Shown: positions 2,620 to 64,000 of the stretch, piece by piece
How the letters are laid out: each line of letters begins with the position of its first letter
Numbering within the stretch: the stretch's first letter is position 1
Source: Massilia aquatica
GTDB taxonomy: Bacteria; Pseudomonadota; Gammaproteobacteria; Burkholderiales; Burkholderiaceae_D
Assembly: GCF_011682045.1 (NCBI RefSeq)
Contig: NZ_VVIW01000012.1
Location: 62,001 to 126,000 of the forward strand
DNA length: 64,000 nt
Direction of reading: 5' to 3'
Translations under genes and position numbers: made by a program
Notes under the pieces: generated by a model
Databases searched by the model: none
What the model saw: the letters and a program-made list of their open reading frames with translations, nothing else
Told to the model about the DNA's origin: nothing

Positions 2620-2677
2620 GTCCTTATTCCGCTCCCCGCGCTGCGGGGAGCACCGCCAATTCAAGAAAAGAGAATCA

Positions 2678-3556
2678 ATGAAACCATCAGCTTATGTCAT
2701 CGCCCTGTCCACCGTGTTGATCGCCGGTTGCGGCGGCGGATCGTCGGATAACTCCAGCGCGCCCGCAGCCGCGCCGGCGCCGGTTGTTGCCGTACCAGCG
2801 CCAGTTCCAGCGCCAGTGCCCGTGGCGACGCCAGAGCCGGTTGCCGTGACGCCTGCACCGGCACCTGTGCCGGCTCCTGCTCCTGCTCCTGCACCTGCTC
2901 CAGATCCAGTGCAGGCTCCGACGCCTGCCCCGGCGCCAGTCCAGGTGTCGACCCCTGCTCCTGCCCCGGCGACCGCAGCAACACCCACGCTCGCGGAATG
3001 TTTCAAGCTAACGCCGGGCGTGAAGTACGTCGACACGTATGGCAATACGCAAGCAGTAAGCAATGCCGTTTTTGAAGGCATCCCGACCATCGCGATGACG
3101 GAAACGCGGACCGATGGCACGCTGTTTGGTATCGTGTACCAGCACGTTATCGGCAACACCTTATACATGCCGGGCATTTTCGACTACACCTCGAATAACA
3201 TCCCATCCGGAAAATTCGTGAATTCGGCGGATGCCAAAATAGCGCTCGATCTCGTCCCTGGCCAGTCGACTGTAACCCATTACACCGTCACCCGGACCGC
3301 GTATCCGGCGAACACCACCAGCATTGAGTCGGAAACGGTGGCATTCACGTTCGTCGGATTCGAGACCATCACGGTAGCGAGCCGCACGTTTGCCAATGCC
3401 TGCAAAATCACGTTCGCGCCGGAGAAGAACGGCGATATCCACACCACGTGGATTGCCAGCGGTTTCGGCTCGGCGCGCGCCTACACCAAGGATGCCAAGG
3501 GCGCCACCGTGCAGGGCAGCTTCAACGAGATCGTCAAGATTCTCGCCGCACCCTGA
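2678..3556 (+). CDS. Putative lipoprotein with Pro/Ala-rich linker, copy 2
   Basis: Paralogue of the gene just upstream, 292 residues. The start at 2678 is chosen because it gives the same signal (MKPSAYVIALSTVLIAGC) as the neighbour and follows an AAAGAGA ribosome site; the frame is open further upstream but that part does not resemble a secreted protein. The order is lipobox Cys at about residue 18, Pro/Ala linker to about 105, then a domain sharing VPGQ, F-GFxTITVA-RTFANACKI and the terminal EIVKI-AAP with copy 1, while the middle has diverged. The 58-base gap suggests one transcript. Function unknown. Confidence 0.8.
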   Translation: MKPSAYVIALSTVLIAGCGGGSSDNSSAPAAAPAPVVAVPAPVPAPVPVATPEPVAVTPAPAPVPAPAPAPAPAPDPVQAPTPAPAPVQVSTPAPAPATAATPTLAECFKLTPGVKYVDTYGNTQAVSNAVFEGIPTIAMTETRTDGTLFGIVYQHVIGNTLYMPGIFDYTSNNIPSGKFVNSADAKIALDLVPGQSTVTHYTVTRTAYPANTTSIESETVAFTFVGFETITVASRTFANACKITFAPEKNGDIHTTWIASGFGSARAYTKDAKGATVQGSFNEIVKILAAP

Positions 3557-4855: not shown

Positions 4856-6322
4856 CTACTGCGCCCCGATCGGAATGACCTTGCGCGGCCCCTTGCGCTG
4901 CGCGCTCTGCTGCGCGATGCTGGCGCGGATCGTGGCCAGCTGCTCGCCGCTGCGGTACAGCAGGTTGTAGCTTTCGAACGGGATCATCTTCCCGTCCGGC
5001 TGCGCAAAGTGGATGCATGATTTTTTCAGCGCGCGCACATCGAGCGAATAGGCGTCCATGAACTGCACGATCAGCACGCGGAACACGTTCTCGTAACCCA
5101 GGCCGGCCGGCGCGTCGATCAGCGGCAGGCAGCACATCAGCTCCGACAGGCAGTTGGCCTGCGACTCGGGCGAATGATTGGTCGCGAACAGCTTGAAGAT
5201 GTGCTCCTTCATGCTCTTTTTGAGCGTCTCGTCGCGCTCGAAGACGATGGTGTTGCCGCTGCCTTCGACCAGCGTTTGCGGATCGAGGTAGCGCGTCAGC
5301 GGCACCGCCTGGCCGGCCGTCTTGAGCGCATACGCCATGGCCAGCGTGTCCGGGTTGCAGGGCACCGGCACGATATCGGCCAGCGTGAACAGGGATGTCT
5401 GCTCGGTGATCTTGCGCCGTATTTCGGACACCGTGAGGCGGTGCGCGCGCGGATCGTAGCGCTCCACCCGGCCGGCATCCTGGATCGGCTGCAAGGTCAC
5501 GCCGCGCACGCAGGGCTGGGTCAGGGCGAAGTCGATGATGGCGCCGATTTCGTCGTCGTTGAGGCCCTTCTTGAGCGTGACCACCAAGGTAGTAGAGAGC
5601 TGCGCCGCGTTCAGGTTGGCCAGCGCCTGCGCGCGGATGCGGGTCAGGTCGGCGCCGCGCAATGCCTTGTGCACCTCGCTGCGCAGCGAATCGAACTGCA
5701 GGTAGACCTCGATGCCAGGCGCGTAGGTGGCCAGGCGGCGCGCAAAGGCCGGGTCCTGCGCCAATACGATGCCGTTGGTGTTGACCATGACGTGCTTGAT
5801 CGGGCGCGCCTTGGCCGCGTCGAGAATGTCCCAGAAGCGCGGGTGCAGGGTCGGCTCGCCGCCGGAGAGCTGCATCACGTCCGCTTCGCCCTCGTTGGCC
5901 ACCACCGCGTCGAGCATCCTGATGATGTCGTCGAAGGGTTTGTGCAGTTCGCGGTGGGTGCCGCTTTCGGCGTAACACACGGGGCAGTTCAGATTGCAGT
6001 TGTCGGTGATTTCGACGATCGACAGGCAGGAATGCTGCATGTGATCGGGACACAGGCCGCAGTCGTACGGGCAACCGTACTGCATCGGCGTGTTGAAGGT
6101 TTGCGGCATTTCGGGATGCTTGACGAAGACTTCGCGGCACAGGCGATAGTAATCGACATCGTCGCTCACCAGCACGCGTTCGGCGCCATGCGCGCTGCAC
6201 CACTTGTCCATGAAGACATCGCTGCCCTTGAAAATGATCTTGGCCTCGACCGGATGCAGGCAGGTCGAACAGACCGAGGTGGTGGTGTCGTAAAACAGGT
6301 AGGGACGGATTTTGCGGCTCAT
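4856..6322 (-). CDS. Radical SAM protein, tetraether synthase/MJ0619-like
   Basis: 488-residue radical SAM enzyme. In order: an N-terminal metal-binding motif CSTC (18-21) with a second Cys/His pair C42/H45 (rubredoxin-like layout), a Cys cluster C84, C88, C91, C99, then the cluster-binding C109-x3-C113-x2-C116 in ITDNCNLNCPVCYAE, and a TIM-barrel core with SGGEPTLHP. Arrangement and spacing recall the archaeal MJ0619/tetraether synthase (Tes) family, whose studied members join or modify unreactive lipid carbons; bacterial homologues are mostly uncharacterised. The ATG at 6322 overlaps the stop of the upstream Lgt-like gene as ATGA, so the two are probably translationally coupled. A role in modifying a lipid is inference. 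Confidence 0.8.
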   Translation of the reverse strand: MSRKIRPYLFYDTTTSVCSTCLHPVEAKIIFKGSDVFMDKWCSAHGAERVLVSDDVDYYRLCREVFVKHPEMPQTFNTPMQYGCPYDCGLCPDHMQHSCLSIVEITDNCNLNCPVCYAESGTHRELHKPFDDIIRMLDAVVANEGEADVMQLSGGEPTLHPRFWDILDAAKARPIKHVMVNTNGIVLAQDPAFARRLATYAPGIEVYLQFDSLRSEVHKALRGADLTRIRAQALANLNAAQLSTTLVVTLKKGLNDDEIGAIIDFALTQPCVRGVTLQPIQDAGRVERYDPRAHRLTVSEIRRKITEQTSLFTLADIVPVPCNPDTLAMAYALKTAGQAVPLTRYLDPQTLVEGSGNTIVFERDETLKKSMKEHIFKLFATNHSPESQANCLSELMCCLPLIDAPAGLGYENVFRVLIVQFMDAYSLDVRALKKSCIHFAQPDGKMIPFESYNLLYRSGEQLATIRASIAQQSAQRKGPRKVIPIGAQ

Positions 6323-7083
6323 GGTTCGATCGCTTTCAGTGGCGCCGGCGCGCCGAGCTGCCGGGCGAGCAAGGGAAGATAACAGAGCAGCGCAGCCAGG
6401 CACACCAGCTGCACGCCGCCCAGGCCCGCGCCATAATCGTAGCGCAGGGGCTTGATGGCGTCGACCGCGAGGCGCCAGGCCAGGTAGCCGAACAAGAACA
6501 GCTTGAACATCAAACCCGGCTTGTCGCGCCAGCGCGCGCGCAGCGCCAGCAGCAGGCCGCCCCACGCGAGCACGAACAGGATGTCATAGAGCTGGGTGGG
6601 ATGGCGCGCAATGCCGTCGCCGAAATCGACGCCCCAGGGCAGCGCGGTGGCCTTGCCGTAGGTGCCATCATTCAGGCCCGCCAGAAAACAGCCGACGCGT
6701 CCGAGCGCGATGCCGGCCATGAGCGGCAGTACGAACTGGTCGCCGGTGGACTGGCGCTGGCCGGTCAGTTTCTTGGCGATTTCCACACCCAGCAAGCCGC
6801 CCAGCAGGCCGCCGACAATCGAGGTGCCCGACATCCAGATGCTGATGGCGCCCGCATGCGCGGCCCACAGATGCGGGTACTCGATCCAGAACACCAGCTT
6901 GTTGCCGGTGGCGGCGCCGAGGATGCAGCCGATGACGACGGCGTAGCCGCTGCCGCTGAGGATGCCGCTGGCGCCGCTGCGGGCGCGCTGGCGCCGGTAC
7001 AGCTGCATGCCGATGGCAATCGCGGTCCACTCGAACAACAGATGGACGGCATGGGCAGCGCCGGGGGATAGGGGCAGCGTCAT
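6319..7083 (-). CDS. Lgt-like (prolipoprotein diacylglyceryl transferase family) membrane protein
   Basis: 254-residue polytopic inner-membrane protein of the Lgt superfamily, with about seven hydrophobic segments. Lgt-like landmarks are present: SIVGGLLGG (88-96, where Lgt has HGGL), GRVGCFLAG (128-136, where Lgt has GRxGNFxNxE) and RHPTQLYD (160-167). The His of HGGL is Val here, and the Asn and Glu after GR are Cys and Leu, so ordinary lipoprotein diacylglyceryl transfer is doubtful. The ATG at 7083 overlaps the stop of the small gene upstream, and its own stop overlaps the radical SAM start, making a tight three-gene unit. Confidence 0.78.
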   Translation of the reverse strand: MTLPLSPGAAHAVHLLFEWTAIAIGMQLYRRQRARSGASGILSGSGYAVVIGCILGAATGNKLVFWIEYPHLWAAHAGAISIWMSGTSIVGGLLGGLLGVEIAKKLTGQRQSTGDQFVLPLMAGIALGRVGCFLAGLNDGTYGKATALPWGVDFGDGIARHPTQLYDILFVLAWGGLLLALRARWRDKPGLMFKLFLFGYLAWRLAVDAIKPLRYDYGAGLGGVQLVCLAALLCYLPLLARQLGAPAPLKAIEP

Positions 7084-7304
7084 TGCTCCGACTGCGGCGG
7101 CGCGCCTGCCTTGCGTAAGCGGCGGTAGATACCCCAGCCAAGCATGGCGGAAAGGGTCACGCCGATGAGCCCAAAGACGAGCAATTCGTTCGCTGCCGCG
7201 GGTCCCGAGTGTGCGGCAAGATACAGTCCGAGCACGCCACACGCACCGATGCCGACCATGGCGATCAAGGCAATCAACAAGACGACGGCGCGTAGAAAGG
7301 ACAC
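7080..7304 (-). CDS. Small two-helix membrane protein, paralogue B
   Basis: 74-residue protein starting with GTG, with two predicted transmembrane helices (about 4-30 and 40-60) and a basic, polar tail. It resembles the next upstream gene in the motif FLR-V--L-A--AMVG-G-CGVLG, so the two are likely a tandem duplication. Its TGA overlaps the ATG of the Lgt-like gene (ATGA), which argues that it is real and works with that gene. Function unknown. Confidence 0.65.
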   Translation of the reverse strand: MSFLRAVVLLIALIAMVGIGACGVLGLYLAAHSGPAAANELLVFGLIGVTLSAMLGWGIYRRLRKAGAPPQSEQ

Positions 7305-7351
7305 AACTGCCTCACGAGAAATGGGCGTTCACGATGCTAGCGAACGCCGGC

Positions 7352-7579
7352 TCACTTACCGGATGCCCTAAACGCTCTATTGAGCTTTCTGACAAGAAAC
7401 CAGGCAAGCGTCGCGCAGATCGCCAGCCCAGCCAGGCCCATAAAGAAAGTGCCATCGAACATGTTTGCCGCGTCGGTGTATGGGCGGAAACCGATCATTA
7501 CGCCGAGCACACCGCACAACCCGAAGCCGACCATGGCAAGCGCGGCGACCAAGATGCCAACAATACGTAAGAACTTCAT
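7352..7579 (-). CDS. Small two-helix membrane protein, paralogue A
   Basis: 75-residue protein with two predicted transmembrane helices. It starts MKFLRIVGILVAALAMVGFG and shares the AMVG-G-CGVLG core with the following gene. The start at 7579 is chosen because upstream codons in the same frame are not hydrophobic and lack the paralogue's beginning. It lies 47 bases ahead of paralogue B and may be the first gene of the operon leading to the Lgt-like and radical SAM genes. No function assigned. Confidence 0.6.
   Translation of the reverse strand: MKFLRIVGILVAALAMVGFGLCGVLGVMIGFRPYTDAANMFDGTFFMGLAGLAICATLAWFLVRKLNRAFRASGK

Positions 7580-60475: not shown

Positions 60476-64000
<3,525 letters not shown>

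Follow-up and report, generated by a model that had tools for sequence, protein, structure and literature searches.

A four-gene operon of Massilia aquatica, coding for a radical S-adenosylmethionine (SAM) protein, an Lgt-like membrane protein and two mini membrane proteins, was analysed. The window, that is the whole stretch of 64,000 nucleotides studied, covers positions 62,001 to 126,000 of contig NZ_VVIW01000012.1 (assembly GCF_011682045.1) in a genome of 7.47 Mb. The results indicated that the two enzymes and the small proteins carrying a transmembrane-cysteine (TM-Cys) motif almost certainly form one functional unit, and a lipid-linked system is supported. The operon combines variant forms of known kinds of enzyme with a candidate signal for which no description was found in the literature searched. 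The TM-Cys motif, overlooked in the initial annotation of this DNA, points to a protein acceptor. It is tentatively proposed, at somewhat less than even confidence, that the Lgt-like enzyme attaches a glycerolipid to the motif cysteine and that the Tes-like enzyme does radical chemistry on the lipid. The features of the operon are as follows.

7352-7579, minus strand: P0004, 75 residues, two-helix mini membrane protein with the TM-Cys motif; candidate acceptor (substrate)
7511-7528, minus strand: motif GFGLCG of P0004, residues 18-23, with Cys22
7080-7304, minus strand: P0003, 74 residues, GTG start, mini membrane protein and paralogue of P0004; candidate acceptor (substrate)
7236-7253, minus strand: motif GIGACG of P0003, residues 18-23, with Cys22
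6319-7083, minus strand: P0002, 254 residues, Lgt-like integral membrane protein (PF01790), ATGA-coupled to both neighbours
4856-6322, minus strand: P0001, 488 residues, radical SAM protein of the Tes/TrsS superfamily with a rubredoxin-like N-terminus and extra cysteines of the iron-sulphur (Fe-S) type

The four genes are tightly packed and co-directional, running from 7579 to 4856 on the minus strand. ATGA overlaps were read in the sequence at 7080-7083 (P0003/P0002) and 6319-6322 (P0002/P0001), in accordance with the layout, coordinates and two exact overlaps of the initial annotation. Its description of the two small proteins as paralogous is also fair, the identity between P0003 and P0004 being 35%. 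The ratio of nonsynonymous to synonymous substitution (dN/dS) against the copy in genome G923 was 0.29 for P0004, 0.18 for P0003, 0.11 for P0002 and 0.08 for P0001; all four therefore seem to be genuine genes kept by purifying selection. Massilia rubra has a P0001 orthologue of 97% identity.

Conservation of the enzyme pair

The linkage of the two enzyme genes was analysed in other genomes. A radical SAM match at E 1e-20 was present in 7 of 200 genomes of the order, the own genome included. Five of the others are orthologues (59-86% identity), and in all five the Lgt-like gene is immediately upstream or separated by one gene; the seventh genome (G152) holds more distant radical SAM relatives only. 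Scanning of species genomes confirmed 128 places, of which 80 were kept, and an Lgt-like gene was found in the stretch examined at 76 of these. The combined set consisted of 98 loci (79 + 5 + 13 and the window, L042 being omitted as a copy of L017). An Lgt-like gene lies near the radical SAM gene in 94 of them, on the same strand in 91; the three opposite-strand loci are in metagenome-assembled genomes labelled Archangium or Myxococcaceae. The distance between the two genes is at most 2 kb in all 94, at most 1 kb in 88 and at most 60 nt in 54, and a 4-nt overlap is present in 30 of the 75 same-strand pairs measured.

The sample of 398 genomes of the phylum contained the superfamily in 12, ten of which belong to a divergent clade 2, and in all ten an Lgt-like gene was found within the 1.5 kb examined. 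At the level of the family, 195 genomes were searched: 15 contain the radical SAM gene (E 1e-150), and these 15 are all among the 16 that contain the Lgt-like gene (E 1e-30). The additional genome, G955, belongs to the same genus and has a broken locus with fragments only (L165, 7529-8292). Compared with the window, both mini genes, the start of the Lgt-like gene and the middle of the radical SAM gene are missing, and both enzyme genes break off at the same site. The single broken locus observed thus shows joint decay of the two enzymes.

The pair proposed in the initial annotation is therefore conserved in other genomes, and also in other phyla, since four of six plasmid-labelled loci examined, in Bacteroidota and Actinomycetota, have an Lgt-like gene near the radical SAM gene. 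The plasmid of Persicobacter (Bacteroidota) carries an Lgt-like gene, a radical SAM gene (53% identity) and a 59-residue protein ending FVIGTGICGSLLS. In Actinomycetota, records labelled as plasmids of Mycobacterium branderi, M. avium and Nonomuraea carry an Lgt-family gene and a radical SAM gene (234-237 bits), together with one or two proteins of 94-368 residues having GL[MI]IGWALxS[IV]xxxGxCTGxNP near the C-terminus. The motif lies in the last helix in both Bacteroidota and Actinomycetota; an outward orientation of these last-helix motifs, too, is conjectural. On the M. branderi plasmid (L180, 5602-7247) the operon is immediately followed by an IS200/IS605 tnpA gene and a gene of the TnpB family.

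The TM-Cys motif of the small proteins

The pattern G-[FI]-G-x-C-G is common to P0003 and P0004, with the cysteine at position 22 in each. The small proteins adjoining the pair in other loci are otherwise highly variable in sequence, and in most of them a hydrophobic helix closes with G-x(1-4)-C, typically GxGxCG. An adjacency test was relied upon for the motif in preference to counts per kilobase. It took every small membrane open reading frame (ORF) of up to 140 residues on the same strand within 120 nt of either enzyme gene, and yielded 76 such ORFs in 67 of the 98 loci. The strict motif requires a run of at least 10 hydrophobic residues without charge and then G-x(1-4)-C. It was present in 62 of the 76 as compared with 3 of 131 controls, all three among the 31 small ones; the controls were genes of the same loci that have an early helix and lie at a distance of more than 3.5 kb. 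The three controls with the motif all look like ATP synthase subunit c, as named by eye. A profile with the motif columns masked found 18 homologues (16 loci), and the cysteine was still present in all 18.

The density of motif proteins near the pair, with the bodies of the enzyme genes excluded, was 0.497 per kb (132 proteins) as compared with 0.022 per kb (37 proteins) in the control. The 132 proteins included 21 MFS-PlsC matches; these and two others were dropped, one of which (from L029) may be real, leaving 109 motif proteins in 69 of 84 loci, a few of them probably spurious frames such as the 'large' LLLLCG protein of L092. Glycine occupies position -4 from the cysteine in 64% of the 109, -2 in 70% and +1 in 54%, and the motif cysteine is the sole cysteine in 34 of the 88 small ones. 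The mean net charge of the 65 adjacent motif ORFs is +1.0 before the helix and -0.4 after the cysteine; the charge is more positive before the helix in 50 and equal in 9, which fits an N-inside orientation of the mini proteins.

The motif was compared with the canonical lipoprotein pathway (lipobox, Lgt, LspA, Lnt). The likeness consists in an enzyme of the Lgt family and in a cysteine placed where an N-terminal helix ends on the outer side. The operon motif differs in being glycine-rich and inside the helix, often with more hydrophobic sequence after it. The canonical lipobox pattern [LVI][ASTVIG][GAS]C was matched by 2 of 88 small and none of 21 large motif proteins, and neither P0003 (GIGAC) nor P0004 (GFGLC) matches it. 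The operon in the window has a radical SAM enzyme in place of LspA or Lnt genes, neither of which is present, as it holds no gene beyond P0001-P0004.

The TM-Cys motif is not confined to a single family of proteins. Loci of Collimonas, Undibacterium and several Massilia and Pseudoduganella have a longer protein with GGTGC or a similar motif between the enzyme genes. The longer motif protein of L025 carries a Sel1 repeat, and those of L093 and L102 gave no family match when domain-tested. The mini proteins tested reached no Pfam or NCBIfam model at its cut-off. The mini-protein profile, run over the own genome, found just the two linked copies at E <0.03, and no unlinked substrate is claimed there. 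In the 195 family genomes, mini proteins were found in 13 at E 1e-4, and 12 of these also have the enzymes. Genome G791 has a second, unlinked TM-Cys mini protein (L176, 6945-7166), its operon being elsewhere in the genome.

The Lgt-like protein P0002

P0002 belongs to the LGT family PF01790 (85 bits, cut-off 24.9) and lies below the lgt equivalog cut-off of TIGR00544 (42.7 vs 118.9 bits); the Lgt-like proteins tested reach the general LGT family model only. P0002 keeps the fold and the catalytic arginines of Lgt (PF01790, TIGR00544, PDB 5AZB). R143 and R239 of Lgt are retained as R129 and R204 in 69 of 69 clade-1 and 10 of 10 clade-2 sequences. In the structure search with the Lgt-like model, the rows below the top one were helical matches of the G-protein-coupled receptor type with low Z. 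P0002 may plausibly transfer a diacylglyceryl group from phospholipid.

A canonical Lgt is present elsewhere in the genome (C11, 245 bits). Further LGT-family matches of the same genome lie on contig 33 (365068-365883, 133 bits) and contig 16 (87781-88065, 26 bits), and no relative of the P0001 radical SAM protein was found in the surrounding stretches examined.

The radical SAM protein P0001

The initial annotation had described P0001 as a Tes/MJ0619-like radical SAM enzyme. By sequence and fold P0001 belongs to the Tes/MJ0619 superfamily. It has the domains Radical_SAM and Zn_ribbon_HMPTM, the nearest solved structure by sequence is GDGT-MAS/MJ0619 (E 3e-61), and the next neighbours in the structure search are the peptide-modifying radical SAM proteins SuiB and SkfB. 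The rubredoxin (CX2CX20CX2H), N-cluster (Cys3) and radical SAM (CX3CX2C) ligands of Tes, taken from PMC9433317, are all present and aligned with MJ0619. The residues C18, C21, C42 and H45; C84, C88 and C91; and C109, C113 and C116 are invariant in 75 sequences.

P0001 thus resembles GDGT-MAS/Tes (MJ0619, NF045702, PDB 7TOL/7TOM) in fold and in the N-terminal and radical SAM cysteine sets, and it differs in score, phylogeny, C-terminal cysteines and linkage to an Lgt-like gene. The score against the Tes model NF045702 was 269 bits with a cut-off of 450; none of the 398 phylum genomes exceeded this cut-off, and three archaeal control genomes did. The C-terminal cysteines are rearranged, the P0001 family having its own set (C322, C397, C398 and C436, invariant in 75). 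The profile alignment with 7tol puts Val and Leu (Phe in P0001) at the positions of Met439 and Tyr459 of GDGT-MAS, a comparison made in one alignment with a gap nearby. In unrooted trees P0001 falls in a well-supported group that excludes MJ0619, that is outside the archaeal Tes lineage and inside the wider superfamily. With the pairing conserved, this placement triggers by half the condition on which the initial annotation would have given up its lipid hypothesis. Long branches blur the deepest branching (Actinomycetota, L144, MJ0619), and one origin of the pairing is indistinguishable from two. The superfamily assignment of the initial annotation was hence retained, and the name Tes was rejected on the cut-off, the trees and the C-terminal positions.

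The best NCBIfam score of P0001, over nearly its whole length, was obtained with TrsS (NF045646; 325 bits, cut-off 490), a radical SAM (seleno)protein. This name was likewise rejected on the cut-off. P0001 also differs from TrsS in that its frame is open with ordinary codons, and no methyltransferase is found among the six annotated recurrent neighbour clusters of P0001-type loci, unlike L178 and L179. The relatives of Mycolicibacterium vanbaalenii and Haloarcula have the radical SAM gene followed by a DVU_1556-like methyltransferase that scores below that model's cut-off, and an Lgt-like gene was not found in the stretch examined. The superfamily has several partner types, of which the Lgt/TM-Cys type is one.

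Two further radical SAM genes of the Tes/TrsS superfamily are present outside the window on contig 22 of the same genome (G000), at about 101774-103147 and 119081-120445 (L014, 9583-11406, and L015, 7515-8966). The genes of this region code for ketoacyl synthases, acyl carrier protein, a FabA-like dehydratase, class III aminotransferases and a SPASM radical SAM protein, a content that resembles an as yet uncharacterised pathway to a lipid or polyketide. Genome G152 has a related radical SAM pair, and the four genes form their own group in the tree.

Neighbouring genes

The lipid link drawn in the initial annotation was strengthened by the neighbouring genes of other species, among which lipid enzymes recur. 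Of the 83 loci whose neighbours were clustered, 33 have an MFS-PlsC fusion, 13 a PlsC-AMP-ligase and 10 an amidohydrolase. These counts are lower bounds, as the gene caller was crude and recognised the Lgt-like gene in 41 loci only, and one member of each cluster was domain-tested. In L069 (Archangium-labelled) a domain-tested gene of the fatty-acid hydroxylase family lies between the enzyme genes, and a similar-looking protein is present in L088. In L144 (2935-3912, genome G753) a membrane methyltransferase gene of the ICMT/PEMT type adjoins the most distant Lgt-like gene, and two GTC mini proteins lie between the Lgt-like and radical SAM genes. The recurrent neighbours, the hydroxylase-like genes of L069 and L088 and the methyltransferase gene of L144 fit a lipid process.

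The operon of the window contains none of these lipid neighbour genes. It is flanked by a YaiI/DUF188 protein upstream and by glyoxalase-family and DUF2147 proteins downstream; these flanking genes recur at the locus in genomes of the same genus and are absent from the recurrent neighbours of the wider set. Elsewhere in the window, at 1645-2619 and about 2670-3556, lie two adjoining similar putative lipoproteins with long proline/alanine/valine repeats (PAPAPVPAP), which are probably a tandem duplication.

Proposed mechanism and alternative explanations

The proposal that a glycerolipid is placed on the motif cysteine starts from the conservation and linkage of the genes, the motif, the folds, the kept donor-site residues and the one joint decay. 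P0003 and P0004, as putative acceptors, would insert with the N-terminus inside, so that the conserved cysteine would come to lie near the outer end of the first helix, placed as the lipobox cysteine is in a prolipoprotein. P0002 would recognise the glycine-rich TM-Cys motif rather than a lipobox and would move a glycerolipid group, probably diacylglyceryl from a phospholipid donor, to the thiol of Cys22, leaving the helix uncleaved. P0001, on the cytoplasmic side and with a presumed complement of Fe-S clusters whose number is itself a conjecture, may do radical C-H chemistry on the lipid, either tail-to-tail coupling or other tailoring, before or after the transfer. In other species the MFS-PlsC and PlsC-AMP-ligase proteins near the pair would flip and re-acylate the lipid by-products. 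The larger claim that this is a second bacterial protein-lipidation pathway, with a portable TM-Cys signal in the first or last helix, Lgt-like lipidation and then Tes-like tail coupling, is decidedly doubtful. In such a pathway the protein would bear a membrane-spanning or tail-coupled lipid anchor, and the distribution would be patchy in Pseudomonadota, Myxococcota, Bacteroidota and Actinomycetota.

Several observations weigh against lipidation of the motif cysteine. Some concern P0002, which the initial annotation had placed in the family that transfers a diacylglyceryl group: its Lgt-like nature stood, and the essential His103 and the signature motif proved to be absent. His103, in the HGGL motif, is essential in E. 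coli Lgt (PMC4728403, also the source of the signature). Its position holds V in 64, L in 3 and I in 2 of the 69 clade-1 sequences, and E in 5, A in 4 and L in 1 of the 10 in clade 2. The Lgt signature GRLGNFINGELWG is not found; P0002 reads GRVGCFLAGLNDGTYG, the N146 position being Cys in 69 of 69 and the N149 position mostly Ala. Transfer by the Lgt mechanism is therefore not assured for P0002. The same losses are found in another Lgt paralogue of the genome (F and C there) and are therefore not specific to the system linked to radical SAM. The most distant partner (L144) has K at the R143 position and R at the R239 position.

The motif evidence also has weak points. In alignment A3 of 16 small proteins only G18, C22 and G23 are invariant and G20, G26 and G51 near-invariant, and the invariance of the cysteine is partly selection, as the rows were picked from motif-bearing proteins. 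The loose motif separates poorly, with 66 of 76 adjacent ORFs as compared with 18 of 31 small controls (p 0.0018) and 39 of all 131. After removal of false matches, 15 of the 84 loci have no motif protein within reach of the detector, and 4 of 13 divergent loci have no adjacent one. Three of the 15 enzyme-bearing family genomes (G799, G820 and G829) gave no mini-protein match at E 1e-4, although G820 nonetheless has a mini gene with MSLCGG beside the pair. Genome G892 has an orphan TM-Cys mini protein (L175, 6794-7468) with neither enzyme gene at the thresholds used. As regards the pair, the four of 98 loci with no Lgt-like gene in the stretch examined are L060, near a contig edge, and the Methylococcaceae loci L094, L097 and L098, which have the radical SAM gene; the methyltransferase-paired relatives L178 and L179 also have no Lgt-like gene in the stretch examined. 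The predicted structure of P0001 is of low confidence at 83-93 and 355-396.

The main rival explanation is that the pair makes a modified free membrane lipid, namely a tail-coupled, bola-type or otherwise tailored glycerolipid, and that the mini proteins are subunits or chaperones whose cysteine packs or binds a metal or cluster. Small hydrophobic subunits are frequent in membrane enzyme complexes, and proteins with the domains of the MFS-PlsC and PlsC-AMP-ligase neighbours act on free phospholipids. Tes works on free lipids (PMC9433317), and Zeng et al. (PMC8941075) retrieved 456 bacterial Tes homologues and suggested membrane-spanning lipids as the product. Against this, the motif is also found in longer early-helix proteins, one with a Sel1 repeat, and in the last helices of Bacteroidota and Actinomycetota; it therefore resembles a portable signal rather than a conserved subunit. 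The unlinked second motif protein of G791 argues in the same direction, and the free-lipid product is considered somewhat unlikely.

The other explanations rank after it. The glycine-rich surroundings of a single cysteine, and the position of SuiB and SkfB as next structural neighbours, would suit a radical SAM enzyme that modifies the TM-Cys peptide itself, by a thioether or other cross-link at Gly or Cys as in sactipeptide maturation, with the Lgt-like protein then lipidating or anchoring the product; this is regarded as quite improbable. Little probability is given to the mini proteins being redox partners whose cysteine passes electrons or disulfide equivalents to the Fe-S enzyme with no covalent product. 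A conserved cysteine near the gene of an Fe-S enzyme, and the CcdA and protein disulfide oxidoreductase genes of the methyltransferase-paired L178, speak for it, but a membrane-embedded cysteine on the outer side would be a poor partner for a cytoplasmic cluster enzyme, the small motif proteins that have no second cysteine are many (34 of 88), and the rubredoxin-like N-terminus of P0001, judged from its ligands, could do the electron transfer. Least of all is given to P0002 being a nearly ordinary second Lgt for ordinary lipoproteins, its linkage to P0001 reflecting shared regulation only. The Lgt fold, the kept arginines and the longer motif proteins between the enzyme genes of some relatives, which resemble lipoproteins, would agree with it. 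It is made unlikely by the score below the lgt cut-off (43 vs 119 bits), the canonical Lgt elsewhere in the genome, the missing His103, the scarcity of lipoboxes among the motif proteins, and the co-occurrence of the enzymes with their joint decay in the sole broken case (G955).

Among the literature matches listed, no paper on the pairing of an Lgt-like protein with a radical SAM protein was found, and no paper in the literature searched joins prolipoprotein diacylglyceryl transferase, radical SAM and tetraether. For many Tes-like genes of bacteria no product is known, and this locus gives a concrete partner enzyme and a candidate substrate residue. Mass spectrometry of a protein of 75 residues thereby offers a direct test of what the bacterial relatives of Tes do. 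If lipidation of the TM-Cys motif is true, lipobox-based lipidation would not be the sole route of the Lgt type, and genomes could be searched for substrates by means of this small motif.

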